Shown here one piece after another: positions 13,662 to 31,632 of a stretch of DNA of 64,000 nt. The stretch lies in IMG/VR virus record IMGVR_UViG_3300042453_005121, positions 1 to 64,000 of that record; one strand, given 5' to 3'. Within the stretch, counting starts at the first letter, position 1, and the number at the start of each line of letters is the position of its first letter. This DNA comes from a virus. The translations under genes were made by a program, and so were the position numbers. The notes beneath the pieces are model-generated. The model worked only from the letters and a program-made list of their open reading frames with translations. It was not told the DNA's origin and made no database searches.

Positions 13662-14354
13662 ATGAACTACACAAATCCAATTGAATATCCGGTCGTACTT
13701 ACTCCTAATCTTACCAACATTGCCACCGAGGGCGGGTTGGACACCAGCATCTTGAACGGGGTGTCGTTGCAGAGGACCGTCAACATGGTGATGACGCGCG
13801 ATCAGCAGGGCAACGTCAAGGTTGTCGGAAGCAGGAAGGACGGCGAGTCGTACGACGACGTGGTTTCTTACGTCTCGGGGTGGAAGACTGTCCTAGACAC
13901 GATCTGGCTTTATCCGGTTGCGGACGTGAATTCGGTCTTGGAGATCTTCCGCTTGCCAGCCGCGAAGGCCATAGTCGAGGAGGATGAGAGGATAGTTTTC
14001 GAGGACATTGACCATCTATATTACTTTTACAATGAAGTTTATGAGAGCACGGAGGTAGCCCAGCCCGTGGGTAACGTCGGATATTCATTGGGCGTCGGGA
14101 CTCGTCTGAGGGACCTCGGTATCACCGTTCACTTGGAGTTGGCGAGTGGCCTCAGGATCGTGACCTGGCGGCTTGTGGAGCAGTTGACTTCGCAGTCGGA
14201 TCTTCCTGTAAGTGGCGATTCACCGGACGGAACCATTGGATTTGTCCTCATTTACTGCGACTGGGATCGGAACGGAGTTCAAGACGCTTTGAATTTGAAT
14301 CCGGTCGGACTCGGCTTCTCTAACGCCGATCCCTTGAGGGTGGAGCAGATTTAG
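13662..14354 (+). CDS. Putative virion protein carrying the GLDTS/DGESYDD module
   Basis: 230 aa from ATG 13662. Residues about 17-65 contain GGLDTSILNGVSLQRTVNM, VKVVGSRKDGESYDDVV, the same module found alone at 24730 and at the C-termini of the proteins at 15222 and 30022. The rest is beta-rich with no recognised domain (RLRDLGITVHLELASGLRIV). Its neighbours are virion-surface proteins, so a structural or assembly role is inferred. Confidence 0.5.
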   Translation: MNYTNPIEYPVVLTPNLTNIATEGGLDTSILNGVSLQRTVNMVMTRDQQGNVKVVGSRKDGESYDDVVSYVSGWKTVLDTIWLYPVADVNSVLEIFRLPAAKAIVEEDERIVFEDIDHLYYFYNEVYESTEVAQPVGNVGYSLGVGTRLRDLGITVHLELASGLRIVTWRLVEQLTSQSDLPVSGDSPDGTIGFVLIYCDWDRNGVQDALNLNPVGLGFSNADPLRVEQI

Positions 14355-14367
14355 ATCGCTTTGGCCG

Positions 14368-14463
14368 ACATTCTATGAGATGCTGCCGATGTTGGCCGAG
14401 GCTCGGGCTCCGAGAAAAAATACAGGGGAGACACTAAATAAGCCAAGCGGGGAGGGTGCTTGA
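14368..14463 (+). pseudogene. Relic of a capsid-targeted gene (start codon missing)
   Basis: In this frame the DNA reads TFYEMLPMLAE|ARAP..., closely resembling MKTFYEMLSLMEE of the gene at 23326 at both protein and DNA level. The expected Met-Lys is replaced by Trp-Pro, with no start upstream before a stop. The frame closes at a TGA that overlaps the TTG start of the next tiny gene. It could be translated from the internal ATG at 14380 (27 aa), which would lack the signal. Confidence 0.45.
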
Positions 14464-14549
14464 AAAGTTTTCTGGGATGGTCTGAAAGTGGAAATTGGAC
14501 CATCCTTTGTCGGCCGGCCAAAGGAGAGGCGCATGAAAAGTTTCTATGA
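14460..14549 (+). CDS. Tiny ORF with capsid-targeting-like N-terminus
   Basis: 29 aa from a TTG that overlaps the preceding stop (TTGA). It begins MKSFLGWSE|SG, fitting the shared signal and leaving a 20-residue peptide after cleavage. Its end overlaps the first codons of the next gene, which starts MKSFYEF. Size and TTG start make expression uncertain. Confidence 0.35.
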   Translation: MKSFLGWSESGNWTILCRPAKGEAHEKFL

Positions 14550-14961
14550 GTTTTGGATGATGATGGAGGACTACGACTCGTGGTTGGGGAAGCCCTATCA
14601 GGACGCCGAGGAGGACTATCGTCGCCGCTCAAATTTCTCGAGGTTCTTGGGCGAAGGTGACGAAGAGGCTCCGTTCAGCCTTGAGGTGGATGTGCGTGAT
14701 GGCGAGTGGGAGGCAAGAGGGGGCATATGGGTCAAGGATTACGTGCCTAACGGGTCCGAGAATCCGGCTAGCGAGCCGCAGTTGTTCAAGGCTGGCGACC
14801 AGGGGCACGAGAGCAGCGCCGGAACTTGGTTCAAAAAAGCGGGTCGGGATTTGGAACTTCTTCCTGCGCACATCAGGGCCGAGGCCACGAAGTGGATTGA
14901 TCAGAAAGTTGAAGATGCAATAGCCAATTACGAGCCGGAAGATCCGAGAGACATGTACTAG
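14533..14961 (+). CDS. Hypothetical protein with predicted capsid-targeting N-terminus
   Basis: 142 aa. ATG 14533 has Shine-Dalgarno AAAGGAGAGG, so this start is well supported. It begins MKSFYEFWMMME|DY, matching the shared signal. The rest is acidic and Trp/Tyr-containing (LEVDVRDGEWEARGG near residue 50) with a helical C-terminus. No family was recognised. Predicted to be a head-internal protein. Confidence 0.6.
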   Translation: MKSFYEFWMMMEDYDSWLGKPYQDAEEDYRRRSNFSRFLGEGDEEAPFSLEVDVRDGEWEARGGIWVKDYVPNGSENPASEPQLFKAGDQGHESSAGTWFKKAGRDLELLPAHIRAEATKWIDQKVEDAIANYEPEDPRDMY

Positions 14962-15221
14962 AGAACAGGAGATTGAAGACTCGTATATTGAATGATACTT
15001 GTTTTAGGTTCTACGGGCTACGTTGGTTCCAAGTGTGGTGGGGTTAATCTGATGGAACCCTCTCCCGTCGCAAGGATTGGGAGGGTCTCTTGTTTCAAGA
15101 AACCTTCATTGGCCCGCAATATTATTTATTGTTTTTTTGTTTGAAAATTACAGATTTGTAAAACAATTTTGTTTGACTTCGTGTCATACATAATATCAGA
15201 ACCTTTTAACATGGAGTTCAT
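14962..15221. other. Intergenic region, no gene seen
   Basis: 260 nt before the beta-propeller gene. It contains an imperfect hairpin around ACCCTCTCCC ... GGGAGGGT (about 15058-15087) that may terminate upstream transcription, then an A/T-rich leader with CATACATAATATCAG before the start at 15222. No ORF of note. Confidence 0.4.
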
Positions 15222-17423
15222 ATGGCTGGCATCAATGACATTCTGTCCAATCTCAATTCCGGTTATGAAGAAGTAACCGATCTGATTCCCGACAAGCGCG
15301 TATTCGTAGACGATTTTGATGTTGCAAAAAATGAATACGACGCATCTGTCGGCGGAATCGAACCGCTTGGAAACAGATTCATTGCATTGAGTAGCGGCAA
15401 GTATCTGTGGGTGGGCATTGATGGAGCAGCCAACGACGATGAGGCCAGAAATGTCCGCAGATACAACACTGATTTTACTTTGGATGAAACTTTTAATGCT
15501 CCTGTCTTTTCAGACGACACCGGCGGTTTCGTTGTAGATGTGGTAGAACTATCTGATGGCAAATTGGTTATTGTTGGGAATTTTACAACCGTTAATGGAA
15601 CATCGGTAGGTAGAATTGCAAGATTAAACGCAAATGGATCGTTAGACTCTAGTTTTAATTTTGAAGGTGTTGGATTTGATAATATTGTCTCTGTATTAAA
15701 ACTTCTTTCGGATGGAAGTTTCTTGGCGGGAGGACTATTTAGCACTTGCAATGGTACATCTGTAAACAGATTGGTTAAGTTGAATTCTAATGGGTCTTTG
15801 AACACATCTTTTTCTGATAATGTCACTTTAGATAATGATGTTTTCACAATGCATGTTTTATCGTCTGGCAAGATTTATGTCGGCGGAAATTTCACAAATA
15901 AATTAATCAAACTCAACAGTGACGGAACTACGGATGAGACTTTTGATGTAGGCACTGGATTCAACAACATGGTTACTAGTATCAAAGTAGATTCTAACAA
16001 CAAGGTGATTGTTGGAGGGTCGTTTGATGAGTATGACGGTTCACCTTGCAGTCGTGGAATTGTCAGATTGAATACAAATGGAACCTTAGACTCCGGTTTT
16101 GAGACAGAGGGTGCTGGGTTGAATTATAATAATGGTGGCGTGGTTCAATGTTTGGCCATTCAGTCGGACGGCAAAATAGTTGTTGGCGGTTCGTTTGATC
16201 AATATGATGGCAACAGACAAGGTCTTATTATCAGATTTAATACAGACGGAACTAAAGACTCTACTTTTGTTACTGGGTATGGTTTTGGTGATGATGGACC
16301 GAATGACGGCCAAAGAGTTCTCGACATACTTCTAAACAACAACAAAATCATTTGTGTTGGAGCCTTGTACAATTATGGCGGCAAAGCACTTTATGGGTTT
16401 GCCAAGTTAGGCTTAACAGGATCTTTGGACTCGGAAAGATTATTCAGGTATGTAAGCTTTGGTATAAATGATGGCTTTGATGACATGTATGACGATGGAA
16501 ACTTCATCAACACCAATTTGACTCAACTTTTTGAAGACATATCTGGCTTTGATGGTGATGGCGATAGTCGTGTTGAAGAGCTTTTGAGCGTCCCAAACAC
16601 TCATTCTGCTGCAATAGACGAGGATGATTTGGAAGATGAGGGATCGCCCGTTTACGAACCTGCGATGGACGGCCAAGTGATGTCGGGAAATGGTTATTTC
16701 GGCAATGATAGCAGTTACTTTACTAATTATTATCCCGGAATGTATGTCATGGTTGCAACCAATATTGACATTGAAGAATTTTCAATAACCGGTGATTTGG
16801 GGTCGGATAGCAACACAGAAAACGAATCGACAATGCTCGTTGTTTACGAAGGTGCCACATACACAGTATTTGTAAAAGTCAACAGAGAAGGCGCTGGCGG
16901 AGGAGAAGGATCAGACCCGTCCGTAAACCACATGATAATAGTTCCCGGAGGTTCAGAAGGCTTAACTCAGACAATCAACGATGATGAAGATGACTACGAC
17001 GATCATTGCATCAGGGGGCTAACAGGCAGAAAATCAATTGCATATATTCTTGTTGCAAGATCCACAGGCGAATATCTTGATTATGAAGATGCCGAGACAA
17101 TTGTTGTTAAGTTCTTGGAGGTTACTGGAGGCTTGTCAGGCGTCCAGAGTTATTCTGCCAACGACAATGGCGCTTATGATCTTTCTCCCACACCCGTGAA
17201 GAAGTTTGGCGAGGGTTCGTTGGACACGGCGATCATCATGGTGGAAGGCCAAAGAGTGTCCGTTCAAAGGGATGGATATTATGAGTTGGTTGATTCAAAT
17301 GGGAACAGAAAGATCGTTTTGGTCAGGGACGGAGAAAGCTGGGACGACGCCCCGGCATCTCCCGAGGCGACTAACAACCCCACTGGTCACCCGACCGTTA
17401 GCAGCAGCGGCAGTACCTGCTGA
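15222..17423 (+). CDS. Tail fibre-like protein with delta-60/DUF5122 beta-propeller repeats
   Basis: 733 aa. Residues about 40-400 contain seven or so repeats of the delta-60 type, each with SDGK/N-x-V-GG-x-F ... GT ... RLN-NG-LD-SF (for example LNANGSLDSSFN), a beta-propeller family frequent in secreted and surface proteins. Residues about 430-650 are beta-rich and Asp/Gly-rich. The last about 70 residues (EGSLDTAIIMVEGQRVSVQR ... DGESWDDAP ... NPTGHPTVSSSGST) are the shared module also seen at 13662, 24730 and 30022. It is more A/T-rich than the head genes. The likely role is receptor binding or virion decoration. Confidence 0.7.
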   Translation: MAGINDILSNLNSGYEEVTDLIPDKRVFVDDFDVAKNEYDASVGGIEPLGNRFIALSSGKYLWVGIDGAANDDEARNVRRYNTDFTLDETFNAPVFSDDTGGFVVDVVELSDGKLVIVGNFTTVNGTSVGRIARLNANGSLDSSFNFEGVGFDNIVSVLKLLSDGSFLAGGLFSTCNGTSVNRLVKLNSNGSLNTSFSDNVTLDNDVFTMHVLSSGKIYVGGNFTNKLIKLNSDGTTDETFDVGTGFNNMVTSIKVDSNNKVIVGGSFDEYDGSPCSRGIVRLNTNGTLDSGFETEGAGLNYNNGGVVQCLAIQSDGKIVVGGSFDQYDGNRQGLIIRFNTDGTKDSTFVTGYGFGDDGPNDGQRVLDILLNNNKIICVGALYNYGGKALYGFAKLGLTGSLDSERLFRYVSFGINDGFDDMYDDGNFINTNLTQLFEDISGFDGDGDSRVEELLSVPNTHSAAIDEDDLEDEGSPVYEPAMDGQVMSGNGYFGNDSSYFTNYYPGMYVMVATNIDIEEFSITGDLGSDSNTENESTMLVVYEGATYTVFVKVNREGAGGGEGSDPSVNHMIIVPGGSEGLTQTINDDEDDYDDHCIRGLTGRKSIAYILVARSTGEYLDYEDAETIVVKFLEVTGGLSGVQSYSANDNGAYDLSPTPVKKFGEGSLDTAIIMVEGQRVSVQRDGYYELVDSNGNRKIVLVRDGESWDDAPASPEATNNPTGHPTVSSSGSTC

Positions 17424-17446
17424 GATGATCATTGCCTTGAAGTTAT

Positions 17447-17495
17447 CCACCCCGACCCTAAAGGGACTGGGTTTTCTGGCGGGAGTCGTATAAAC
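17447..17495. repeat. Direct repeat copy 1 with hairpin CCCTAAAGGG
   Basis: It aligns at roughly 80 percent with 17910-17959, sharing CCCTAAAGGGACTGGG, TTTTC/ATTTC, TGGCG and ATAAAC-type blocks. Read on the minus strand it has the look of an IS200/IS605 end hairpin or omegaRNA 3' scaffold. No transposase gene is present. Confidence 0.6.
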
Positions 17496-17504
17496 TACCC
17501 AATC

Positions 17505-17567
17505 CCCCTAAAAGGGGTTGGGTAGTTCACTAAGTGTATAAGTGAACTACCCAACCCCTTTTAGGGG
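17505..17567. terminator. Perfect 27-bp inverted repeat, probable bidirectional terminator or attenuator
   Basis: 17505-17531 is the exact reverse complement of 17541-17567, with a 9-nt loop. A third, similar arm at 17493-17509 can pair with 17512-17527 instead, so two mutually exclusive hairpins are possible. It sits between convergent genes ending at 17423 and 17954. Confidence 0.7.
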
Positions 17568-17634
17568 CTTCTAAGACATTGCTGTATAAAGAGTTCATTC
17601 CAACTCAGCGTTAAGGTCACGAGTTGGCCGAACT

Positions 17635-17912
17635 TCAAAGGTAATTGTAACCGGTATCCTTTGTGATGCCTCCCTTGTGCTGCCTCTGGGTCTTCCAAAC
17701 TACAATGTCTCGGCCATGGGCTTCATGACTATTTGAATCTATTTGATCCACATCAAAAGCATCATCTGGATCTGGTGCGATGCGATAGTCGCCCCTAGAG
17801 GTAAGTACAATCAAATGGGTGACACAGTAGTATCTTTTGCCATTTGTCTTGCTTTTTTAGCAAGAACATTGATTTGATCATGCGACTCATGCAACTTTTT
17901 ACCGCCATTCAT
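17635..17912 (-). pseudogene. Frameshifted small gene of unknown function
   Basis: On the minus strand an ATG at 17912 opens MNGGKKLHESHDQINVLAKK and reaches a stop at 17811. If the frame shifts by -1 at an A6 run (17853-17858) the reading continues to 17635 with protein-like sequence (GKRYYCVTHLIVLTSRGDYR, then GRDIVVWKTQRQHKGG), about 90 aa in all. This is either a pseudogene, a sequencing error in the homopolymer, or a frameshifted gene. It lies between the two direct repeats. Confidence 0.4.
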
Positions 17913-17959
17913 CCCAGCCCCTAAAGGGACTGGGATTTCTTGGCGAGATCATATTAAAC
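17910..17959. repeat. Direct repeat copy 2, overlapping the end of the giant repeat gene
   Basis: It contains a hairpin ATCCCAG ... CTGGGAT around CCCCTAAAGGGA. It overlaps the last codons of the gene ending at 17954 and pairs with the copy at 17447-17495, bracketing about 450 nt. Confidence 0.6.
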
Positions 17960-20900
17960 AACGCCTAATATATTAGAACCATTAATGCCTCCACCATGCT
18001 CGGCAATAACAGATCCACAATTGGCTAGATTATAAGAATTGTCTCTGAACGTCGCAGAACCGGTAATTTGTGCTGTGGCGGTTATATATGAGTTTCCACG
18101 AAATACAACATCTCCAGTAACAACATTATCATTATATGATGAATTATTAAAAATAACATTACCAGTTATGGGACTATTATTATAGGACGAATTATTAAAG
18201 ATGACATTTCCTAATATAGTATTTGTAGAAGTATATGAACTATCATTAAATATGACATTTCCTTGTATGGTACTGCCATTATAACTAGTATCATTAAAAA
18301 TAGGATTTCCAGTTATGTTTGTATTACCATAAAACTCACGACTAGCAGAAGAGTCGTTAAAGATTGGATCACCAACAATAAGTCCATCATTGTATGAAGA
18401 ATCATTAAAAATTGGATTTCCTGTTACATATCCCAGAATGAAAAAACCACCATTGGCAATAAATGATGTATCATTGAATACTGGATTTCCAGTAAACGAG
18501 TCAAAAACATAAGAAGTATCATTAAAGGTGGGTGTTCCGCTCACGCTACCACCGTCAGAGTACGATGTTTGATTGAAGGTAGCATCTCCGGTGATGGTTC
18601 CGCCATCGTTGTATGATGTACCGTTAAAGGTGGGATTGCCTGTAAATGAGCCGGTCAAGTAAGAAGTGTCGTTGAAGGTGGCTGTTCCGCTAACGCTTCC
18701 ACCATCAGAGTATGACGTTTCGTTAAAGGTAGCGTCTCCAGTTATGGTTCCGCCACTATTATATGAGGTATCATTAAAGGTAGGATTGCCAGTAAACGAT
18801 CCGGTTAAGTAAGAAGTGTCGTTGAAGGTGGCTGTTCCGCTAACACTTCCTCCGTCACAGTAAGATGTTTCGTTAAAGGTGGCATCTCCAGTAATAGTTC
18901 CACCATCATTGTACGCTGTGTCGTTAAAGGTTGGATTGCCCGTGAACGAGCCGGTTAAGTAAGAAGTGTCGTTGAAGGTGGCTGTTCCGCTCACACTACC
19001 ACCGTCAGAGTACGATGTTTGATTGAAGGTGGCGTCTCCAGTAATAGTTCCACCGTCATTATATGATGTGTCGTTGAAGGTGGGGTTGCCAGTAAACGAT
19101 CCAGTTAAGTAAGAAGTGTCGTTAAAGGTGGGTGTTCCGCTCACGCTACCACCATCAGAGTACGATGAGTCATTAAATGTAGCATCTCCGGTTATTTCAT
19201 CTTCGTTGTATGTATTATCATTAAAAACAACATTGCCTACAACAGCACCAGAGTTGACTGAAGCATTGCTGAAAATACATTCTCCTTCAATTCTTCCATT
19301 ATTTATTGAATTGTCATTAAATGTACAGTCTGCAAAAACTGTTTCGCTAGGATAAGAATGATTGTTTGTGGAATCATCGTTAAAAATTATAGTTCCATAT
19401 ATTATGTCATAATTAGCAGAACTATCATTGAATGTACAGTTACCGGTTATAATTCCAGTATTATTGTAAGAGTTGTCATTGAAAGTACAATCTCCTACTA
19501 TCTGGGTACTGAGCTGGTAGCCGTTATATGAAGAGTCATTAAAAACTACATTTCCAGTTATACCTGCGTTTGTTCCACCCGCATATAAATTGTATGATGT
19601 GTCATTAAAAGTAACATCTCCTGTTATGACTCCATCATTATATGAAGTGTCATTAAAGGTGGCGTCCCCGGTAATAGTTCCACTGTCATTATACGAACTA
19701 TCATTAAAGGTGGGATTACCTGTGAATATTGCTCCGCCACCAATGCTAGTCTGTAATTTAGAACTATCATTAAAGATAGCTGAACCACTGATGCTACCAC
19801 AATTAGACGAGGAAGTATCATTGAAGGTGGCATCTCCAGTTATGGACCCATTAAAATTATACGAACTATTATTAAAAACCGGGTTGCCAGTAAACGATCC
19901 AATTATATAAGAACTGTCGTTGAAAGTGGCTGTTCCGCTAACGCTACCTCCATCACATTTTGAACCGCTGTTAAAAATAGCATCCCCTGTTATATTTCCG
20001 CCGTTATTAACAGAAAACATATTAAAAACTGGATTACCCGTAAATGATCCGGTTAAGTATGCAGTATTACCACCTGTTAAACTCGGATCGATACCGTTAA
20101 AAATGGTTGATCCGCTAACACTTCCTCCGTCACAGTAAGATGTGTCGTTAAAGGTAGCATCTCCAGTAATAGAGCCACCATCATTATATGAAGATTCATT
20201 AAAGGTGGGATTGCCTGTGAATGTGAACGAGCCAGTTAAATAAGAACTATCATTAAAAGTTGTTGTTCCACTAACACTACCGCCATTGCTATACGATGAA
20301 TCATTGAATATAGCATCTCCAGTAATGGTGGTTCCTCCACTGTTATCATTATATGAACTATCATTAAAAATAGCGTCAGTAACTGTGCCGTAGTTAAACG
20401 AATTATCATTAAAAGTACCATTAGTTACTGCGCCAAACGCATCATTAAACGAATTATCATTAAAAGTAGCATCAGTTACTATGCCATAACTATTTGAACT
20501 ATCATTAAATGTAACATTTCCAACTATAGTTCCAGCATTATAAGATGCGTCAATAAAAGTCCAAGTTGGATTTTCAGTTTCAAAAACCCAATTAGTAGTA
20601 TCTGACGTCCAAGAATCTCCGGTTATGGTAAAAGCTACTGAACTGTTTGAAGAAAATATTATATCACCAGATATGGTGGCACCATTCCATTTTTCCCATT
20701 GATTAGCAGAGCCACTATTATTGATGGTATAACTAGATTTTGTAAATATAGCATCTCCGTCAATAGTTGCACTTCCATTGATTAAACTATCATCATTAAA
20801 AGTAACATTTCCAGCACAAACACCACCAGAACCAATAAAAGAACTATCATTAAAAATCCAGGATGGACCAGCAGTTTCAAATACCCATTTGGAATAATCT

Positions 20901-22132
20901 ATAGCACCACTATAATCATACCACTGATGGTCTCCTTCGCAAGTAAATACCACCGCCGTCTCTGAACTGAAGATGGTATTTCCAATAATAGTTCCTCTCC
21001 ATGGAATAAATTTAGACAAATTATCATTTAAAACATAGGATGATTTAGTAAATATGGCATCTCCGCTCACTGTGCCGTCACTATGATTATAAGAAGAGTC
21101 ATTAAACGTAGCGTCTCCGGTGACGGTGCCGTAGTTGATCGAACTATCATTAAAAGTAGCGTCTCCGGTGACGGTGCCGGAGTTGGATGAAGTGTCGTTA
21201 AAAGTAGCGTCTCCACTGACGGTGCCCTGGTTGTATGAACTGCTATTAAAAGTCCAGTTTTGCCCAGCAGTAGTAAAAGTCCAAGATGAAGAATTTAAAT
21301 CCCAAATGTCCCCGATAGTAAAACTTACGGGGGTTAATGAAGAAAAAGTTATATTGCCGTTGACTGTGCCGATTACAGGTGCCATAGGAAATGATGAGGC
21401 TGAAAAAGTAACGTCGCCATTTACAGTGCCGTTGTTGTACGAACTGTCGTTGAACGTACCGTTGCCGGTTACAGTGACGTTGTTGTACGAACTGTCGTTG
21501 AACGTACCGTTGCCGGTTACAGTGCCGTTGTTGTACGAACTGTCGTTGAACGTACCGTTGCCGGTTACAGTGCCGTTGTTGTACGAACTGTCGTTGAACG
21601 TACCGTTGCCGGTTACAGTGACGTTGTTGTACGAACTGTCGTTGAACGTAGCGTCTACGGTTACGGTGCCCTCGTTGGCCGAACTGTCGTTGAACGTAGC
21701 GTCTCCGGTGACGGTGCCGTAGTTGGTCGAACTATCATTAAAAGTAGCGTCTCCATTTATAGCGCTGCCGTTGTACCCACCATTAAAAGTAGCGTTTCCA
21801 TTGATGATGCCTGCGCCGAAACCCTCGCTAATGGAATTGTTCGAATTATTATTAAAAGTAGCGTTGCCATTGATGGTGCCATGGTTGGCAGAACCATCAT
21901 TAAAAGTCGCCACCCCAGTAACGGTAATTTCTATAGTAATATATCCTGTTAATGTAAAATTTACTATATTAGGCTCACTACCACTATTACTAGTTATGTT
22001 AGATGATGCTATTACGCTATCACTACTAGATGGCAAACTTGTGGCTGATGTTTCAAAAGTAGCATCAGTCCACCAGTTGCCCAGTGTGGCCCAATTTGCA
22101 TCTACCGCACCGTTGAAATATAAAGTTGCCAT
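17954..22132 (-). CDS. Giant repetitive beta-structural protein (putative adhesin/fibre)
   Basis: 1392 aa. After an N-terminal domain beginning MATLYFNGAVDANWATLGNW, the protein consists of about 60 repeats of 16-18 residues with the core G-x-(I/V)-T/S-G-x-A-T-F-N-D-x-S-Y-N, rich in Asn, Ser, Thr and Gly. Such repeats predict a long beta-solenoid fibre. Variants with STTNWVFET and longer inserts occur near residues 270-560. Codon use is A/T-rich, unlike the head genes. It lacks a signal peptide, as phage fibres do. Recent repeat duplication is visible at DNA level (18519-19268 and 21431-21660). Confidence 0.7.
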   Translation of the reverse strand: MATLYFNGAVDANWATLGNWWTDATFETSATSLPSSSDSVIASSNITSNSGSEPNIVNFTLTGYITIEITVTGVATFNDGSANHGTINGNATFNNNSNNSISEGFGAGIINGNATFNGGYNGSAINGDATFNDSSTNYGTVTGDATFNDSSANEGTVTVDATFNDSSYNNVTVTGNGTFNDSSYNNGTVTGNGTFNDSSYNNGTVTGNGTFNDSSYNNVTVTGNGTFNDSSYNNGTVNGDVTFSASSFPMAPVIGTVNGNITFSSLTPVSFTIGDIWDLNSSSWTFTTAGQNWTFNSSSYNQGTVSGDATFNDTSSNSGTVTGDATFNDSSINYGTVTGDATFNDSSYNHSDGTVSGDAIFTKSSYVLNDNLSKFIPWRGTIIGNTIFSSETAVVFTCEGDHQWYDYSGAIDYSKWVFETAGPSWIFNDSSFIGSGGVCAGNVTFNDDSLINGSATIDGDAIFTKSSYTINNSGSANQWEKWNGATISGDIIFSSNSSVAFTITGDSWTSDTTNWVFETENPTWTFIDASYNAGTIVGNVTFNDSSNSYGIVTDATFNDNSFNDAFGAVTNGTFNDNSFNYGTVTDAIFNDSSYNDNSGGTTITGDAIFNDSSYSNGGSVSGTTTFNDSSYLTGSFTFTGNPTFNESSYNDGGSITGDATFNDTSYCDGGSVSGSTIFNGIDPSLTGGNTAYLTGSFTGNPVFNMFSVNNGGNITGDAIFNSGSKCDGGSVSGTATFNDSSYIIGSFTGNPVFNNSSYNFNGSITGDATFNDTSSSNCGSISGSAIFNDSSKLQTSIGGGAIFTGNPTFNDSSYNDSGTITGDATFNDTSYNDGVITGDVTFNDTSYNLYAGGTNAGITGNVVFNDSSYNGYQLSTQIVGDCTFNDNSYNNTGIITGNCTFNDSSANYDIIYGTIIFNDDSTNNHSYPSETVFADCTFNDNSINNGRIEGECIFSNASVNSGAVVGNVVFNDNTYNEDEITGDATFNDSSYSDGGSVSGTPTFNDTSYLTGSFTGNPTFNDTSYNDGGTITGDATFNQTSYSDGGSVSGTATFNDTSYLTGSFTGNPTFNDTAYNDGGTITGDATFNETSYCDGGSVSGTATFNDTSYLTGSFTGNPTFNDTSYNSGGTITGDATFNETSYSDGGSVSGTATFNDTSYLTGSFTGNPTFNGTSYNDGGTITGDATFNQTSYSDGGSVSGTPTFNDTSYVFDSFTGNPVFNDTSFIANGGFFILGYVTGNPIFNDSSYNDGLIVGDPIFNDSSASREFYGNTNITGNPIFNDTSYNGSTIQGNVIFNDSSYTSTNTILGNVIFNNSSYNNSPITGNVIFNNSSYNDNVVTGDVVFRGNSYITATAQITGSATFRDNSYNLANCGSVIAEHGGGINGSNILGVV
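18519..19268. repeat. Five 150-nt tandem super-repeats inside the giant fibre gene
   Basis: Units begin near 18519, 18669, 18819, 18969 and 19119, each encoding three 16-17-aa repeats (50 aa). The copies differ by scattered, mostly synonymous changes. Confidence 0.85.
21431..21660. repeat. 48-nt tandem repeats inside the giant fibre gene
   Basis: Near-identical copies begin at 21431, 21479, 21527, 21575 and 21623, each encoding one 16-aa unit (GTVTGNGTFNDSSYNN). Confidence 0.85.
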
Positions 22133-22317
22133 CTATTGTATTCCTATAATAAGTAAATTAATATCTTGGTACAAAGGCGATAATGTTGGACGAATTTGGA
22201 CAATTAATATTTTTTCTTTTTACGTTGTTCATAATTGTAATATCAGGCTCATTTAGTATTATTGAAATAAAAGTTTTTTTACTCTAGTTCCGCGTTGTTG
22301 TAATAATAGGTGGCCAT
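22133..22317 (-). pseudogene. Frameshifted paralogue of the neighbouring gene at 22341
   Basis: The minus strand from ATG 22317 reads MATYYYNNAELE then stops. In shifted frames it reads KKTFISIILNEPDITIMNN and ILIVQIRP, closely matching KTFSPITLTELDVTIMDN and IVLVQIRP of the intact gene upstream. The two breaks fall at or near T7 (22274-22280) and T6 (22210-22215) runs. The final stop is immediately before the giant gene's ATG. Confidence 0.65.
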
Positions 22318-22340
22318 TTTTCAATCCTTAAAAATTTGAT

Positions 22341-23135: not shown

Positions 23136-23325
23136 TTTGCACTCCTTTTACGAACTCATGTATATTTAGTTGTCTCTAGTTCAGATTCACTACAATTGTG
23201 TCAAAATTGGATCGACGCAAGAGTCTAAGGCAAATTAGGATAGGGCATTAAGGCAGATTGATTTGGCGGCTAAAATTCACACCAATTGTTACTAGATATT
23301 GTGATTCAAAACAAGGAGAATTTAA

Positions 23326-23682: not shown

Positions 23683-23757
23683 TGTATTTTTTGATATCGG
23701 GATTAATTTTGATTGAATTATCGGTTATGATTCTGGCTTTTCTTTGGCCTCGGTATG

Positions 23758-24435
23758 TCAGGGGAAGTCAACCAGACTGATCGTGCCTTCGCTGATGGCT
23801 AGGTAGTGACACGGTGACTCGGTCCAACATCCGCTGTTATGGTATTCTATCCCGTCTGTGCTTTGAATCGCCACATGGGTGTGTCCGCAGATAACGACAT
23901 CGGCTCCTTTCTTTTTGGCGTATAACTTCGCTCTTTCCTTTATTTGTTCGGAGCATCTAAGGAATGTCTTGCTGCTTCTTTTGGCTAATCTTGCGAGGTA
24001 GAAGCTCTTGTCTATTTTTTGTATGGTCCTGTACGCGTTGTCTGCAAGTTTGGTCAAAATGGGATATTTGGCTATGAAATTGTCAAATATGTCACCGTGG
24101 AGGACGAGTATGTTTTTGGTGCCGCTCTTGAGTCTGTATTCCTCCACGAAGTCTAAGCCGATGAGGTGGGATATGATCTCTGCGGGGCCGTCGTGGTTTC
24201 CATTGATCCAAACTATGTGTTTGTTCTTGGCCATGCTTCTCAGTTGAGAAAGTATCTTCCAGTGCGATCCTCTGAGTTTTCTGAAGTCCCAACTGTCAAA
24301 CAGGTCGCCGTTGATTATTATCTCGTTGGTCTGTATTTGACCTTGTTCAACTAGAGCAAGGAACTCCCTGACTTTTTTCGCTTGGCACACGTCGCTGCCA
24401 AGGTGTATGTCGCTGATTATTACCGTTTCGGTCAT
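23758..24435 (-). CDS. Calcineurin-like metallophosphoesterase (LpxH-like)
   Basis: 225 aa from the ATG at 24435, which overlaps the upstream stop (ATGA). The metallophosphoesterase signature is complete: SDIHLGS, NGDLFDSW, NGNHDG, LHGDIFD and GHTH in the usual spacing. Overall order resembles UDP-2,3-diacylglucosamine pyrophosphatase (LpxH) and related phosphoesterases. The substrate in the phage is unknown. It is translationally coupled to a small membrane protein. Confidence 0.85.
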   Translation of the reverse strand: MTETVIISDIHLGSDVCQAKKVREFLALVEQGQIQTNEIIINGDLFDSWDFRKLRGSHWKILSQLRSMAKNKHIVWINGNHDGPAEIISHLIGLDFVEEYRLKSGTKNILVLHGDIFDNFIAKYPILTKLADNAYRTIQKIDKSFYLARLAKRSSKTFLRCSEQIKERAKLYAKKKGADVVICGHTHVAIQSTDGIEYHNSGCWTESPCHYLAISEGTISLVDFP

Positions 24436-24683
24436 CCCCTTAGATATGACATCAGAGAAAAGATCAGACAAGCCATGAAGTGTAGGAACATGTAGGCAAG
24501 CATTAATTTGGCTGCGGTCGCCATGGGCTCAACATATGACAATTCGGATATGATTTTTTCCATCTTTTTCTTGTCAATGTTTTCCATGCACATTATGTAA
24601 TTGAACTGTGTTTCGTTGCATTCGCCACGAATATATTTTCTCGCAAGTTCCACTTCTTTTTCCGTATACATAGCGTTTGTCAT
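24432..24683 (-). CDS. Small membrane protein
   Basis: 83 aa from the ATG at 24683. The first about 50 residues are soluble and charged (EKEVELARKYIRGECNETQF), followed by one or two C-terminal hydrophobic helices (AAKLMLAYMFLHFMACLIFSL). It is coupled by ATGA to the phosphoesterase gene. A TATATAT element at 24694-24700 lies upstream. The function is unknown. Confidence 0.55.
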   Translation of the reverse strand: MTNAMYTEKEVELARKYIRGECNETQFNYIMCMENIDKKKMEKIISELSYVEPMATAAKLMLAYMFLHFMACLIFSLMSYLRG

Positions 24684-24693
24684 TTTGTTTTGA

Positions 24694-24700
24694 TATATAT
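24694..24700. promoter_or_regulatory. Candidate divergent promoter TATATAT
   Basis: It lies between the start codons at 24683 (minus) and 24730 (plus). The plus-strand gene also has AAAGGAG; the minus-strand gene has no clear Shine-Dalgarno. Confidence 0.4.
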
Positions 24701-24729
24701 TATTAGAGTCCCATTCAAAGGAGAAAAAA

Positions 24730-25044
24730 ATGGCTACATTTACAGTTGATCTGACCCCCACCGTGGTCATGCAGACTTCCGAAGGCTTTTTGGACACTTC
24801 GGTTGTTGGAGGCCTCTCAAAGCAGAGGACGATGGAAGTTCTTCTCGTGGTCAACGGCAGCAACCGCAAGCAACTCTATGGTCTTGCCGACGGCGAGACC
24901 TATGACGACACCACTTTTGATACCGTCGTCCCGAACGTCGTGGCCGGCAATCCGAACTTCCCTGCCGGAACCCCATCAATCTCGTCCGTAAATGTCACGG
25001 TTGGTCATCCGACCGCCTCGAGCGACACCGGAAGCACGATTTGA
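24730..25044 (+). CDS. Stand-alone copy of the shared DGETYDD module
   Basis: 104 aa with AAAGGAG before the ATG. It reads TSEGFLDTSVVGGLSKQRTM, a middle with ADGETYDDTTFD, and GHPTASSDTGSTI at the end. This is the same module that ends the beta-propeller proteins at 15222 and 30022 and lies within the protein at 13662. Probably a virion protein that mediates a common attachment. After the TGA stop a +1 frame stays open for 41 codons (see next entry). Confidence 0.55.
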   Translation: MATFTVDLTPTVVMQTSEGFLDTSVVGGLSKQRTMEVLLVVNGSNRKQLYGLADGETYDDTTFDTVVPNVVAGNPNFPAGTPSISSVNVTVGHPTASSDTGSTI

Positions 25045-25165
25045 TTTTCGTAATAAGGTCGGCCGTCTTGAGATCAAGGTGTCGGCGGCTCGTGACGGAT
25101 CGGACGACGACCTGACGGTCAACACCAACAGTGCGTACCTCAGGATCACCGAGATCGCCCGCTGA
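25040..25165 (+). pseudogene. Start-less +1 continuation of the preceding gene
   Basis: From ATT TGA T the +1 frame reads FDFRNKVGRLEIKVSAARDG and continues to AYLRITEIAR, then stops. The sequence is protein-like, G/C-biased at third positions and has no good start codon. It is either the remnant 3' end of a structural gene or is reached by +1 frameshifting at the stop. Confidence 0.4.
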
Positions 25166-25183
25166 TTGTAATTTATTAGAATG

Positions 25184-25218
25184 GGGGGGCGGGGCATTGC
25201 CCCGTCCCCTTTTCTTTT
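25184..25218 (+). terminator. Rho-independent terminator
   Basis: A G/C-only stem (GGGGCGGGGC ... GCCCCGTCCCC), loop ATT, followed by TTTTCTTTT. It ends the short plus-strand unit before the convergent Cys-rich gene. Confidence 0.88.
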
Positions 25219-25238
25219 GATGGTGCATTGAATCCAAC

Positions 25239-28200
25239 CTACAGAGACGGACATTCAGAAGGATCGCCCGCCTGGCATTCTTCTTCCGTGGCGTACTGGC
25301 CTGTGTTATCGCACAATCCATAACAAATTCTGTATCCTATTCCCGCTTCGCATTCCCATGACTTGTGTGAGCAAGACGCCTGGCAGTCATTGTAGGAACT
25401 TCCGTTGATGCTCCATCCTGACCATTCGCAACTGCAGTTGTTGCACTGCCAATTCTCCGTGCAATTTGGGTCGCACTCGCCATCATAAGGGTAATCCTGG
25501 TTATACGATTGAATGCAACCATCTTGCATGCAGCCGGTGTTCTTCAAACCACAAGATTCTTTGCAGTCCTGTTCCGTTTCGTATTCTCCCGGATTGAGCG
25601 GAGTGCCGGGCATTCCGTATATTGGTGTGCATCCCGCCCCCTCATCGCATTTCCACGCGTAATTCACGCAATACATTTTGCATTCTTCTTGCGTGTATCC
25701 TTCTTCGTAAGAACCATTCCATCCGCAACCACCGTCGCTGTAGCAGTTGTACCTTGGCTGACATCCTTCCTTGCATTCATTGGCGGTACTGTACTGAGCG
25801 GCATCAACACCAGGTTCTCCAAAAACGGGCCTGCACGGTTCCGTGCCGAAAAGAGGAACTGTTTTTGGAATAGACGAAGGATTGCAATAATATCCCACTA
25901 TGTCGCACTCATCACAGGTGTCAACGACTTTGAAGCTAGGGTGGGTGTATGTCCATTTACTTGGCGAGCCGTAACCCAATAGACTACACCCAGTTGATGT
26001 AGTCCAAAAATTTGGTGGAGAAGGATCGTTACGACATTCAAACCTTTGTATGCAGTCACTCTCGCAAACCGATATGTCATAATAGAACCCATTCGGAAGT
26101 TTGTACCCTGGTTGATTTATAATTTCCAATTCTTCTGGACTGGGAGTGTAGAGGACACATCCGCTGGATTCGTCGCATTTATAAATACAATCTGGTGGTG
26201 TCTCTACAGCGCAGGTTATTTCACCGCAACTTTTGCCTTCCTGGAAGTTCTGGACCTTTTTTGCCCCATCGCCCAGCAACCAATAATCAAAAGTGCCAGA
26301 ATCACAATCGTCCACGTAGAACTTGCCATCACAACCGAACTCGCCGGTGCACCAAGCTCCGCACTTAGGTAGCGTCTCTATGGTGCAGGTTATTTCGTCA
26401 CAAATCTTTCCATTTTGGAAACTCTGAACTTTGTTTGCTGTGTCTCCGATGGTCCACTTTTCAAGAGTGCCAGAATCGCACCCGTTGATGTAGAACTTGC
26501 CATCACAACCGAACTCGCCGGTGCACCACGAACCACAGCAGTCATTTGGCGCTGGGTGTGTCTTTGTATTGAATCCACTCACTGCGATAGGACCATCAGA
26601 GAACAGTATTTTCGTGCAGTCACCATCCACAGAACATGGATCGCCCTTGATCCTGTAGTAGGATGAGTCGCATGAATCAGGATCTTGGACCCATTGATCA
26701 AGGGTCATTTTATTTATTTCATCTTCAAATTCACAGAAGCGATAAGATTCGTCTCCTATCTTTTTCCATTCCCGCTTTGCGCAGTCGTATTCAATCAGCC
26801 AATCATGAACGCAGAACCTGTCCGAATTCGGACACGAACCAGACGAGCATTTTTCGTCCGGCCTGAACGATCCCACGTTGGTTTGAGTGTTGTAAGAATC
26901 TATTGATCCATCAAAACACTTGCCCGTTCTTTTTCCAGAAGAATCCAGTTCGCACCAACTGCCGCAGCAATTGCTGGGGGTTCCGGAGGGTTTGGACTTG
27001 GGTCCTGGGGTGGTTGCACATTCGTAAGATTTACTACAAGTGCTATCTGTTACTATCGTGAATGTTCTCTCGCAATTGAAGAAGGGTTTCTCAATCCATT
27101 CACCTTGCGATTTCGGCAAGTCTTTCTGTGATACGCACGATTGGGTCGGAAAAGACGAATTCTCCCAATCTTGAAGTTCACAGTTATAAGTTGAAGTCCA
27201 TTCCTCAACACACAATTTGCATTCCAAATTTTCAAATGGGGTTATTGATGGTGACTTTCCGCATCCAAATCCCATGTTGTCTTTGACCCACTGCTCCATC
27301 CCGTTAGAATCGCATATCTGCTTCATTTGATCATCAGTCTGGCTGGATCTCCCGGTCTTTAGGCATTCACATATACCATAGGAAAGAAGTGTTACCGCTA
27401 CCGGGTCGTCGTCCCAATTGGGACATCCGAAGTCCCCGTCGGAGTTCTCTTTGCCTGGCTCGTAAATTGTGGGTGGCTTGTTGAATTGATTGAGACACCC
27501 GGCGTTGTCGGGCAAGTCCAACCATTCCTGCGCATTTTCATAAACCTCTCCACTCTGGGGCTCCCATATGAAGGAACCTACGCAACAAGGATCAGGATCT
27601 CCTCCAAGATCAACATAAACCATGTAGTGGGTGCATATGCCAATGACCTTTGCTGTAGCCTTGGGGCAAGTTGCCTTCAATTGATTCTCTATGATTTCCC
27701 TTCCTATTACGGCAAAAGACCTGCAATCAAAACTTGTGTCTGGTTCCTTGTATGTTCTAGGTGGTCCGAATGGGTTTACATTGCTACTGGGAGTTCCGTA
27801 CCCGGCAAAATTGTACAGTCTGTTCGGAGGGGTTGTCATACAATCAAACACCCCGCTGGAAACGCCGAGAACGTTTTGTCCGCGAACAATCGAGGTGTTG
27901 CCGGGAACGAACGAAATATTCAAAGCCGACACTGATCCTTGGTTCTGCGAGCCGACTTCGGACAAAAGTTTCCAGTAGGAGTGAGCAAAAGGATAAAAAA
28001 TCTTGAATGAATTGGGGAATGGCGGTTCAAGAGGGACCAGTGACGAAAGCGTGCCCGCATCCCACGCAGACCAGAAATCAGATATCCACCCTTGTAAGTA
28101 GTTGATGTATTCCTCACTGAGACGTCCGCCGCCGCCGTCCGTCCTGATGGAGAGGATCAAATCCGATGAGTATAGAGTGTTACTTGTGAATTCAAATTTT

Positions 28201-28841
28201 GTTCTTGAAGAAAAAAACTTTTCACTCTCTATGTTTAACCTGAAACTGGCTTTATTCGTTCCGTCCAGCAAATAACCTTCCCCGAGCCTAGCCTCTATCC
28301 TGTTGTTCGCAACCCGCTCCAGAATTATCAAGCCAGGGGCGGATTCACCGTCCAATTCCTCGCCGTATACATACAAATCAAGATTTTCGGGCAGAACCCC
28401 ATCGGGATAAGAACGAATCTCAAGATTTATCTGAAGGACGAATTCTTCAACGTCCGAAGCGAAGACGGGCGCCAAAAGACTAAGCGAGGAACTACTGCTG
28501 GGTTGCGTCAGGTCAAGGTCAATAGAATCATAAAAAACACCTTCGTTGTAGTATTGATTTATCAAGCCAATGTCCTGAGAGTTTGACCTGAAAAACTCAA
28601 GGTTCTCCATAATGATATCTTGACTGGAGCTGCTTGATTCTTGCATGTCTTCCGGACGATAAAAGCCCGCATTGCAAACGGTGGAAACAGGCAACCATGC
28701 TCCAGAAGTTCCGAAGCAATTCGGGTCGTTGGGACTGCATCCTGCATAGACGAACTTCCACCCTCCGCACCTTGATAGATTACAAGACTTATAGTCAGGT
28801 CCGGAAAGATCTACTGTTTTTCCATTTGAATTACATCTCAT
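25239..28841 (-). CDS. 1200-aa cysteine-rich repeat protein
   Basis: An N-terminal segment with Cys motifs, then a beta-rich region (residues about 75-330), then about 800 residues with repeated disulfide- or zinc-like units. One pair is nearly identical: CTGEFGCDGKFYINGCDSGT and CTGEFGCDGKFYVDDCDSGT. The C-terminal third has about 45-residue units ending E-x-x-C-x-x-x-C (for example YTQEECKMYC, TEQDCKESC). There is no signal peptide. Cys-rich modules on a phage virion are unusual; an extended surface fibre or enzyme-like lectin is possible. Function unknown; virion location is inferred from neighbours. Confidence 0.6.
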   Translation of the reverse strand: MRCNSNGKTVDLSGPDYKSCNLSRCGGWKFVYAGCSPNDPNCFGTSGAWLPVSTVCNAGFYRPEDMQESSSSSQDIIMENLEFFRSNSQDIGLINQYYNEGVFYDSIDLDLTQPSSSSSLSLLAPVFASDVEEFVLQINLEIRSYPDGVLPENLDLYVYGEELDGESAPGLIILERVANNRIEARLGEGYLLDGTNKASFRLNIESEKFFSSRTKFEFTSNTLYSSDLILSIRTDGGGGRLSEEYINYLQGWISDFWSAWDAGTLSSLVPLEPPFPNSFKIFYPFAHSYWKLLSEVGSQNQGSVSALNISFVPGNTSIVRGQNVLGVSSGVFDCMTTPPNRLYNFAGYGTPSSNVNPFGPPRTYKEPDTSFDCRSFAVIGREIIENQLKATCPKATAKVIGICTHYMVYVDLGGDPDPCCVGSFIWEPQSGEVYENAQEWLDLPDNAGCLNQFNKPPTIYEPGKENSDGDFGCPNWDDDPVAVTLLSYGICECLKTGRSSQTDDQMKQICDSNGMEQWVKDNMGFGCGKSPSITPFENLECKLCVEEWTSTYNCELQDWENSSFPTQSCVSQKDLPKSQGEWIEKPFFNCERTFTIVTDSTCSKSYECATTPGPKSKPSGTPSNCCGSWCELDSSGKRTGKCFDGSIDSYNTQTNVGSFRPDEKCSSGSCPNSDRFCVHDWLIEYDCAKREWKKIGDESYRFCEFEDEINKMTLDQWVQDPDSCDSSYYRIKGDPCSVDGDCTKILFSDGPIAVSGFNTKTHPAPNDCCGSWCTGEFGCDGKFYINGCDSGTLEKWTIGDTANKVQSFQNGKICDEITCTIETLPKCGAWCTGEFGCDGKFYVDDCDSGTFDYWLLGDGAKKVQNFQEGKSCGEITCAVETPPDCIYKCDESSGCVLYTPSPEELEIINQPGYKLPNGFYYDISVCESDCIQRFECRNDPSPPNFWTTSTGCSLLGYGSPSKWTYTHPSFKVVDTCDECDIVGYYCNPSSIPKTVPLFGTEPCRPVFGEPGVDAAQYSTANECKEGCQPRYNCYSDGGCGWNGSYEEGYTQEECKMYCVNYAWKCDEGAGCTPIYGMPGTPLNPGEYETEQDCKESCGLKNTGCMQDGCIQSYNQDYPYDGECDPNCTENWQCNNCSCEWSGWSINGSSYNDCQASCSHKSWECEAGIGYRICYGLCDNTGQYATEEECQAGDPSECPSL

Positions 28842-28953
28842 TTTGTTTATTTATTACAATTTATTTTCAAGGCCAAAATAAAGGAATTATTTTTTTCCTA
28901 AGTGATGCGACATGTTTACGTTGCATTTCCCTTCCCCTTTTCTTTTTGAATAC

Positions 28954-28960
28954 ATAAATA
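28954..28960 (+). promoter_or_regulatory. T4-type late promoter-like ATAAATA
   Basis: CATAAATAG, 5 nt before the ATG at 28966, close to the T4 late consensus TATAAATA. No Shine-Dalgarno lies between it and the start codon. Confidence 0.5.
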
Positions 28961-28965
28961 GTTAC

Positions 28966-29547
28966 ATGGAAAGACCCGACACGCTGATCATGTTCTCCGG
29001 CGGGCTTGACTCCACTGGGGTTTTCTGGCGGCTTATAAACTCGCAGAAGAAACTCCACATACACCATCTATACCTAGTCAACAAAGAGAACAGGGCGAAG
29101 GCAGAGGATAGGGCCGTCGGCGAGATCGTTGCTTACATGAAGAACATAAGGGACTTCGGATACTCGGAAAGCTACCACGAGTATCCTTCTTACAACGGCA
29201 ATTTCATGTTTGACAGCGATATATTTTCTTTCATGGCTGGTTCTATCTGTCTCAGCATGAGGACCGTGCAAGAGGTCGCCATAGGAATGACAGCATCCGA
29301 CATGAGGTCAGGCTTGTCGGCGAGGGTGGAGAGGGCGAACAGAATATTCGAGTCGTTCGGTGCCAAGGCCAAGAAGGTCTACCCGCTCATGGACATGACG
29401 AAGAAGCAGATATATGAAATGCTCCCTGAGGAACTGCGCACCATGAGTTGGAGCTGCCGCACGCCTTTGTACGAAGGTGAGGACATCAAAATGTGCGGGA
29501 GGTGCAGGACGTGCAGGGAGATTAAGTCAATCAGCCTTCCCAAGTGA
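28966..29547 (+). CDS. queC: QueC-like 7-cyano-7-deazaguanine synthase
   Basis: 193 aa. The PP-loop is MFSGGLDSTG (residues 9-18). The C-terminus has SCRTPLYE and CGRCRTCREIKSI, the Cys4 zinc site of QueC. The family converts CDG to preQ0 using ATP and ammonia, the precursor for queuosine tRNA and for 7-deazaguanine DNA modification in several phages. No QueD, QueE, FolE or DpdA-like gene was recognised in this window, so partners would be elsewhere or from the host. It is shorter than typical bacterial QueC (about 220-230 aa). Confidence 0.82.
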   Translation: MERPDTLIMFSGGLDSTGVFWRLINSQKKLHIHHLYLVNKENRAKAEDRAVGEIVAYMKNIRDFGYSESYHEYPSYNGNFMFDSDIFSFMAGSICLSMRTVQEVAIGMTASDMRSGLSARVERANRIFESFGAKAKKVYPLMDMTKKQIYEMLPEELRTMSWSCRTPLYEGEDIKMCGRCRTCREIKSISLPK

Positions 29548-29977
29548 CGATCACTATGTCGGGCTGTGTCTCGGTTATTTCTTTTGCCCCGGGGAACGAG
29601 GTTGGGAAGTGGGTGGCGTACTTCATTCCCTCGAACTTCCTCTTGAACACCCTGCACACGAGCCTGTCGCACTTCCTGCGGAGGTTGTCTGCCAGGGCTA
29701 GGCCCGACAGGTTTAAAACTCCGTCGCCTATTATGACTTCGGACATAGAGGACAAATCTGCCCAGTCGCGCGCTATCACCGGTTTTTTCTGCACCGTGGG
29801 GTTGAGGTCCACCATGTAGTCACAAATGTGTATGAGTTCCTTGGTCATTCCGAGTAGGCATACGGGACCGAATCCTCGGCATTTCTCCTCGTAGATTTTC
29901 ACTTCGTTTTGGTCGGGGGAAAGCGGGGGGCGGAGGTTCTGCCAGTGCCTGGCGTCTTGGATCAATTTGTCGTCCAT
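29531..29977 (-). CDS. Methyltransferase-like Rossmann protein
   Basis: 148 aa from the ATG at 29977; a second in-frame ATG lies at 29992. It begins with DARHWQNLRPPLSPDQNEVK, then a motif I-like strand VCLLGMTKELIH, an acidic DYMVDLNP strand end, VIARDWADL and VIIGDGVLNL, the pattern of small class I methyltransferases with a degenerate glycine loop. It overlaps the convergent QueC-like gene by 17 nt. The substrate is unknown. Confidence 0.55.
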   Translation of the reverse strand: MDDKLIQDARHWQNLRPPLSPDQNEVKIYEEKCRGFGPVCLLGMTKELIHICDYMVDLNPTVQKKPVIARDWADLSSMSEVIIGDGVLNLSGLALADNLRRKCDRLVCRVFKRKFEGMKYATHFPTSFPGAKEITETQPDIVIVTWEG

Positions 29978-29982
29978 ATCGG

Positions 29983-29989
29983 TATATAC
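29983..29989. promoter_or_regulatory. Palindromic candidate promoter GGTATATACC between divergent genes
   Basis: The 10-nt palindrome 29981-29990 offers TATATAC on both strands. On the minus strand it ends 3-5 nt before ATG 29977. On the plus strand the ATG at 30022 follows AGGAG. Confidence 0.5.
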
Positions 29990-30021
29990 CATGTGAAATC
30001 AATCATTTGCAGGAGAAAGAC

Positions 30022-31632
30022 ATGGGCCTTTATATCGTAGCCAACGCGGATGGCCATGTGATCAGCTCGACCGACGGATTGAATTGGACCGAGCCCTTTG
30101 ACACGGGGATAAGCATAGGCAAGGCGGCGGTCGGGCCGGGCAAGATCGTATACACCAGGTGCGACGTAGAAAAGAAAATGACCCCCCAGCCTGGCCTGTT
30201 CTATGCCTCGGCATGGAACCATACGCCCGCATTGGCGGCCGGCACGGGTCAGTACTACTACAACGAGGTTCATTACCTCGGGGGCAAGTTCGTGGCGGTC
30301 GGATACGAAAACACCTCGCCGATTTCTCCCGCTTTTGCCTACAGCGAAGATGGAGTCAATTGGACGATAGGCGATGTAGACCCCGTTTACATAGCCTTGG
30401 TAGGCAGCGGGAACGACATGCAATTCAATGACGTCGGCTACAACGGCACGGGTTACTTCATAATATCCAAGGTCTCAGGCGAGGGATTGGCGGGCGGTTT
30501 TTACACCGGCGATTTATCCCAAGGTCTATATGAGCAGCAATGGGTAGACATAATTAATTTCCCCGTGGACGCGAACCAGCTTCTGTTCACCGACATATCG
30601 GGTGGCGAAAACTGGGGCGCGTGGTCAGTATTCAGCGACGACAGGAAGACATGGGTTTCAACCTTCAACGAAGACCCGTCGGAACCTTGGAATTCTGTAA
30701 ACCTTGACCTTACGCAGATATTTCAGGAACATACCGGACTTTCAAATCTGGAGATAGCCGAGGCGACCATAGGCGTTATTGACGAGTATGTGACTTGGAT
30801 GGTGAGTACCTCTGACGGCCAGATAATATGGTGGCCACATGTTCCCGCCGGGCCGTTCGTGAGCGTGCCGGAGCCGTACACGGCCTCAGTTGTTTCCGTT
30901 GAAAACCTGAATCCCTTGGAGGTTCATCTGTCGTCCAACGGAGAGGAAGGTCCGGCTCTAAACAACGAGAGGATAACGATTTCTGGGGCTACGGACTCCA
31001 CGCCCGGGGCCAGCCCTGGATTTGAGAATCTTGACGGTTCTTACTTCGTAGAAAGTCTGGGATCGGGAAACTACAGGCTCCACACTGATCGCGACCTGGA
31101 ATCTCCCGTGGACGCGTCCTCGTGGATAGGCTCCTACAACGAGGGCAGTGGAACTGCCTCCATGAGCAGGGGCGTTTTCATAGACGCCCTCGGGTATGGG
31201 GACGGCAATTTCTTCGCCGGAAACGACGCCGAAGAGGTGTTCATGTGTTCCGAAATTGACGGAAATGACCTGGTCTGGACGAAGGTGGAAGACCTCAACA
31301 ACAGTCTAGAGTACTGGAACGACGTGGACTACGGCGACTTCGGGGCCTCTGTTTCTTATACTTACGAGTTTAGCGACGAGAGTCCTGAAACCATGCCCAA
31401 CTACAGGCACGGCGGGCCAGGCAACCTTGACACCACTGTTTATGAGAACGAGGGAGGCGCCAGGGTTTCACGTCAGAGGACCGGATATTTTGAGATCGTG
31501 AACGCCGTTGGCGGCAGGAAGGTCGTGGAGGTCTACGACGGGGAGACAGTGGACGACACTGTGGAAGTTCCTAGCGTTCCCGCCAACCCGACTGGCAATC
31601 CCAATGTCTTGGATTCGGGAAGCACTTTCTAG
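30022..31632 (+). CDS. Tail fibre-like beta-propeller protein with shared C-terminal module
   Basis: 536 aa; start ATG 30022 has AGGAG 11 nt upstream. The N-terminal 300 residues contain BNR/propeller-like units (VISSTDGLNWT, GGKFVAVGYENTS, AYSEDGVNWT, VFSDDRKTWVST) typical of sialidase-like blades. Residues about 300-380 resemble a beta-sandwich insertion. The C-terminal about 70 residues (GNLDTTVYENEGG, SRQRTGYFEIVN, GGRKVVEVYDGETVDDT, NPTGNP) are the shared module. It is probably a virion-surface adhesin. Confidence 0.65.
   Translation: MGLYIVANADGHVISSTDGLNWTEPFDTGISIGKAAVGPGKIVYTRCDVEKKMTPQPGLFYASAWNHTPALAAGTGQYYYNEVHYLGGKFVAVGYENTSPISPAFAYSEDGVNWTIGDVDPVYIALVGSGNDMQFNDVGYNGTGYFIISKVSGEGLAGGFYTGDLSQGLYEQQWVDIINFPVDANQLLFTDISGGENWGAWSVFSDDRKTWVSTFNEDPSEPWNSVNLDLTQIFQEHTGLSNLEIAEATIGVIDEYVTWMVSTSDGQIIWWPHVPAGPFVSVPEPYTASVVSVENLNPLEVHLSSNGEEGPALNNERITISGATDSTPGASPGFENLDGSYFVESLGSGNYRLHTDRDLESPVDASSWIGSYNEGSGTASMSRGVFIDALGYGDGNFFAGNDAEEVFMCSEIDGNDLVWTKVEDLNNSLEYWNDVDYGDFGASVSYTYEFSDESPETMPNYRHGGPGNLDTTVYENEGGARVSRQRTGYFEIVNAVGGRKVVEVYDGETVDDTVEVPSVPANPTGNPNVLDSGSTF

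Follow-up and report, generated by a model that had tools for sequence, protein, structure and literature searches.

A small conserved module of large T4-like phages, a candidate virion docking unit for exchangeable heads

The window analyzed here is a stretch of 64,000 nucleotides, positions 1 to 64,000 of the viral record IMGVR_UViG_3300042453_005121, which is 150,762 bp long in its entirety. It carries T4-type head genes and four genes encoding proteins that we call A, B, C and D, each of which contains the same small module (Table 1). The head of B, like those of many relatives, is a clear member of the DUF5122 (delta-60) propeller family (PF17164), with an E-value of 6.5e-60 and 199.5 bits against a cut-off of 27, over six stretches, but the attached module is not part of PF17164. 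The head of D gave no match to Pfam. Orthologues of A were found in five relatives (L012, L013, L018, L019, L077) and orthologues of C in seven (L009, L010, L011, L014, L028, L070, L071).

Table 1. Positions of the module genes, head genes and associated features in the window.
Feature	Position	Strand	Basis
gp20-type portal gene	39-2432		Pfam
gp21-like protease	7596-8309	+	Pfam (PF03420, PF07230 cited for head genes)
Putative scaffold	8314-9228	+	by position
gp23 major capsid protein	9266-10693	+	PF07068, E 1.1e-84
CATACATA, T4-late-promoter-like element upstream of A	13649-13656	+	pattern search
Protein A, 230 aa: N-terminal module, then conserved ~155-aa domain	13662-14354	+	alignment, profile match
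Module core in A	about 13677-13874	+	alignment, profile match
CATACATA, T4-late-promoter-like element upstream of B	15185-15192	+	pattern search
Protein B, 733 aa: DUF5122 beta-propeller, conserved ~250-aa domain, C-terminal module	15222-17423	+	Pfam, profile match, linker-domain alignment
Module in B, C-terminus	17166-17417	+	profile match
TATACATA, T4-late-promoter-like element upstream of C	24665-24672	+	pattern search
Protein C, 104 aa: module alone, doubled G(N/H)P end, SGST-like C-terminal tip	24730-25044	+	alignment, profile match
Upstream flank common to window and L010, 73% DNA identity	28934-29976	.	blastn
Protein D, 536 aa: sialidase-like propeller head (predicted), C-terminal module	30022-31632	+	profile match, structure model, Foldseek
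Sialidase-like propeller head of D (predicted)	30022-about 31347	+	structure model, Foldseek
Module in D, C-terminus	31354-31626	+	profile match
DNA similarity to L010 resumes (75%) at head/module boundary	31354-31724	+	blastn

A preliminary description of the window had proposed that one module is common to four virion-region proteins, and this was borne out by leave-one-out profiles, in which three copies retrieved the fourth with E-values of 6.3e-9 (A), 2.8e-15 (B), 1.3e-11 (C) and 3e-10 (D), while the best other ORF among the 839 of the window gave E >= 1. All four copies lie in open frames, and their pairwise Smith-Waterman z-scores ranged between 4.6 (A-D) and 30.5 (B-D). These sequence comparisons confirm that A-D share one homologous module, and a profile of the family, searched against the entire record, matched the loci of A, B, C and D only. 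The module indeed stands alone in C, but in A, where it had been placed inside the protein, it is N-terminal (residues ~6-71 of 230). Of the motif that had been given, the core is homologous in all four copies and the details are not uniform: the letter after LDT is S in A and C, A in B and T in D; B reads QRD where QRT was given; A/C and B/D are spaced differently, by 1-2 residues, ahead of DGE; and B and D have the NPTG(H/N)P...SGST end, which C carries in a doubled, diverged form and A lacks. The consensus of 47 distinct copies is P...E-G-x-(L/M)-D-T...G-x-S-x-Q-R-T...K...D-G, in which D, S, Q, R and D never vary. The conserved core spans ~60 residues, and a Pro/Gly-rich end of 20-40 residues is often present. 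Cleavage by the prohead protease at the E-G of the module was considered and rejected on inspection, as the third residue ahead of the cut is not I/L and, in protein D, P stands in place of E.

Structure prediction of the stand-alone protein C, as a monomer, gave a pLDDT of 53.5, and in the model of D the module core (about residues 471-520) reached 71-85, with short strands and a beta-hairpin. A Foldseek search with the stand-alone module returned E > 1 only, which is uninformative given the poor model. Part of the D head was modelled at pLDDT 65-86; its best Foldseek matches in the PDB were to phage K1F endosialidase (E 2.3e-6, with TM-scores of ~0.2 and a whole-model mean pLDDT of 53), and in BFVD to a collagen-repeat phage protein (26% identity, E 4e-17). 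These matches support, short of proof, a propeller as the predicted fold of the D head. The earlier statement that the module ends two different propeller proteins is compatible with our data, one head being DUF5122 and the other a low-confidence model resembling the K1F endosialidase.

A search of 30 module sequences against Pfam and PHROGs gave chance-level matches only (best E 0.018). The module profile had three matches in the PDB, all at E >= 0.2 and none to Hoc or a capsid protein; the best of them, a fungal prion domain (E 0.2), was dismissed as chance level. No module match was found in the 50,697 phage records of INPHARED, and in two non-exhaustive scans of 84,980 prokaryote species genomes short-pattern matches occurred, none of them encoding a module relative. 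The widespread unrelated cytoplasmic proteins that the preliminary description had named as a contrary outcome were therefore not encountered, the profile being without matches in the cellular genomes sampled and in known phages. IMG/VR contigs were the sole source of relatives; they come mostly from T4-like phages with a gp23 capsid gene and carry one to four module copies per record. The huge phage LR756511 has no module, although its gp23 is 79% identical to that of the window. Judged from sequence, the module appears to be a previously undescribed unit of 60-100 residues of a group of large T4-like phages.

The relatives present the module in several arrangements. As a free-standing gene it encodes 72-115 aa and occurs in most records. 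At the N-terminus, it precedes an A-type domain, a SPRY/Neuralized-like domain, a STIG1-like Cys-rich domain or an unnamed domain, and in internal position an F5/8 type C or GLEYA domain. At the C-terminus, it follows three types of heads: type I, the DUF5122 propeller with the conserved ~250-aa domain; type II, the sialidase-like propeller; and type III, a domain of 210 aa for which neither a sequence family nor a solved structure was found, and which also occurs combined as III plus I. In one contig (L024), the same tail is joined to heads I, II and III in the products of three genes, those for II and III being neighbours. Thus, the suggestion of an anchor-like tag common to unrelated heads is strengthened by several more fused domain types and by the exchange of heads described below, while its description as a tail holds for B and D and not for the relatives in which the module is N-terminal, internal or alone.

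The D locus offers a direct comparison of two heads on one tail. The upstream homology between the window and L010 stops some 45 nt short of the start codon in each phage; the heads that follow, II in the window and III in L010, have no similarity to each other; and the two tails share 83% aa identity. At the same position, L009 has a III-plus-I protein. In a tree of 17 tails, the tail of the window II protein pairs with that of the L010 III protein (99/99), and the AU test rejected the placing of all II tails in one clade (p 3.9e-5) as well as that of all III tails (p 1.2e-4). The tree and the swap together indicate that heads and tails were re-assorted, or that tails were homogenised within lineages, and under either account the tail is retained as a unit of its own, independently of the head. 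The tandem II and III heads of L024 make loss after duplication possible; differential loss was nevertheless rejected as a full account, because homology that extends to 45 nt before both start codons in the window and L010 implies one or more joins on the 5' side.

T4 late promoters have the sequence TATAAATA, the first base of which varies in relatives (PMC1524935). Similar elements precede A, B and C, and upstream of D there is a near match only. Of the 38 module genes, 32 have the pattern ATA[ACT]ATA in the 80 nt upstream, most often between -30 and -48. Dinucleotide shuffling of these upstream sequences, repeated for 1000 sets, gave 4.5 +/- 1.8 and at most 12, a comparison that overstates independence since the pattern was picked after inspection of these regions and the genes are related. 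The fixed 7-mer ATACATA was discarded as the promoter, with only 2 of 37 in relatives. Also, in the seven records longer than 80 kb with gp23, 15 of the 19 module copies are no farther than 25 kb from that gene (5.6 expected), and the nearest copy is closer to it than random (P 0.0027, related records not being independent). The tail sheath gene is located at 71.4 kb of the record, about 40 kb from D. Stand-alone copies of 72-84 aa in G007, G008, G018 and G019 are found between RecA-like and helicase genes (functions assigned by eye), and similar promoter-like elements precede them. With T4-type gp20, gp21 and gp23 and the late-promoter-like element present, the module genes may be expressed late.

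Other features were observed in the window and in relatives. The portal gene holds an intein (PF14890). Genes at 14512, 23326, 31665, 34079, 34712, 35023 and 42765 (+) and one ending at 61973 (-) encode N-termini such as MKSFYEF, MKTFYEM, MLSLQEY, MLTFREF, MKSIREW and MKTFMEW, which are reminiscent of the sequence that targets T4 internal head proteins to the capsid; these proteins, the DUF5856 protein at 31665 included, may be packaged inside the head. The gene at 17954-22132 (-) encodes a 1392-aa protein of TFNDSSYN-type repeats with a bactofilin-like match, and that at 25239-28841 (-), between C and the QueC-like gene, a cysteine-rich repetitive protein of 1200 aa without family match, which has no counterpart at that place in L009 and L010. 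A QueC-like gene recurrently adjoins module genes in relatives, the window neighbours being 28957-29544 (+) and 29531-29992 (-); in the distant L087 (9527+, 11002-), the QueC-like gene and the 153-aa ORF both appear, by eye, to lie on either side of the module gene. In L086, a 381-kb phage record, several otherwise different proteins near a module gene begin with another common tag, DGPIYS(M/V)L(S/N)GK, which may likewise serve for docking (genes 86-628, 662-1123, 1949-2914 (-) and 3017-3598 (+)).

We consider it fairly probable that the module is a late-made docking unit of the virion, most likely of the capsid, which occurs alone or carries exchangeable heads. This reading is suggested by a constant part with variable cargo, a free-standing version, attachment at either terminus, the late-promoter-like element and the neighbourhood of head genes. 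The small and mostly beta module of T4-like and huge phages would be made late in infection and would bind a recurring virion site, with the capsid as the likeliest place. Protein C would decorate this site alone, and A, B and D would bring a functional domain onto it, the heads being propellers and other domains of surface- or sugar-binding type. Recombination at the head/module boundary would exchange heads and keep the module, and with it the docking site. That the proteins belong to the virion, and to its capsid rather than its tail, is what we infer here, as are ligand binding by the heads and the oligomeric state. A gp23-family gene was not found in G019 (381 kb), G021 and G022, so the docking partner need not be gp23. 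Counting against docking are the stand-alone copies next to replication genes, the lack of a module in LR756511 and the poor monomer fold. A more specific proposal, which we make tentatively, is a position-independent capsid plug serving both free decoration and many adhesin fusions; the virion would then be a mosaic on which several adhesins compete for the same sites and heads are swapped at a fixed joint.

The nearest working analogue would be the capsid-binding domain of T4 Hoc, likewise a small conserved domain of phages with gp23-type capsids, which carries variable displayed domains at either end, with two Hoc-like proteins possible per phage; in phage PG7, it is N-terminal with a lipase-type cargo (PMC10385173). 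However, the module has no sequence match to Hoc in Pfam, PHROGs or the PDB, the headless stand-alone copy is common for the module, and the Hoc domain is a four-stranded sheet with a three-helix bundle whereas the predicted module is hairpin-like and without helices. Hoc binds the middle of gp23 hexamers, and for the module the analysis covered proximity to gp23. Hoc displays Ig repeats; no Ig-domain match to Pfam was found in A-D or ten relatives, which carry propellers and other domains (DUF5122, F5/8C, GLEYA, STIG1, SPRY-type) instead. By these comparisons, the module is not a recognisable Hoc homologue. Short anchors also dock different displayed proteins at capsomer centres in crassvirus gp21/gp29 and T5 pb10 (PMC10172136, PMC5292684), 38-58 residues being sufficient in the crassvirus head fibres (PMC10172136). 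No sequence relation of the module to these anchors was found. The crassvirus anchors are N-terminal only, unlike the module, whose position varies, and the two crassvirus fibres bind different hexon environments.

The same features can be read otherwise. A tag that trimerises fibre proteins, or a chaperone that folds them, required for adhesin assembly but not itself the point of attachment, would account for the C-terminal module of B and D, for the resemblance of the D head model to the trimeric K1F endosialidase and for the collagen-repeat protein with a similar head; the core hairpin, moderate in D and poor alone, is also as for an obligate oligomer. The fibritin foldon and Peptidase_S74 are such small modules, often C-terminal on otherwise unrelated phage fibre proteins. 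The present module, in contrast, is free-standing in most records and N-terminal in other proteins, and it matched neither of them in Pfam nor any PDB sequence at E <= 0.1, hence no solved foldon chain. We regard this explanation as unlikely, although the module may trimerise, and may hold different adhesins at one virion site, as the preliminary description had proposed.

Docking on the tail or baseplate, the proteins being exchangeable receptor-binding proteins of tail-fibre type, strikes us as improbable: propeller heads are known on phage tail spikes, and two ORFs of the window that share the promoter-like element have matches among tail-fibre and connector PHROGs, but the module genes cluster with gp20-gp23 and not with the tail sheath, and the anchor position varies here, whereas the tail-spike anchors known to us are N-terminal. 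A late sorting or modification tag, for display on the host surface or as substrate of the QueC-like enzyme, and thus no part of the virion, is very improbable. The recurrent QueC-like neighbour, with the second neighbour kept in L087, and the D, S, Q, R, D and G residues, invariant or nearly so, speak in its favour; against it, inspection of the N-termini by eye showed no evident signal peptides, the surroundings of the distant stand-alone copies revealed no QueC-like gene, and the heads look like adhesins rather than enzyme substrates.

If the module is indeed a docking unit, these phages would possess a natural means of surface display that has no sequence relationship to Hoc, with an anchor of 60-100 residues which is tolerated at either protein end and fits cargo from STIG1-like repeats to multi-propeller proteins of 1,000 residues. 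A family would thereby be named where Pfam and PHROGs gave no match, and scattered unannotated genes of huge phages would be linked to one function. The module would also provide a marker for the surface adhesins of metagenomic phages without isolates.
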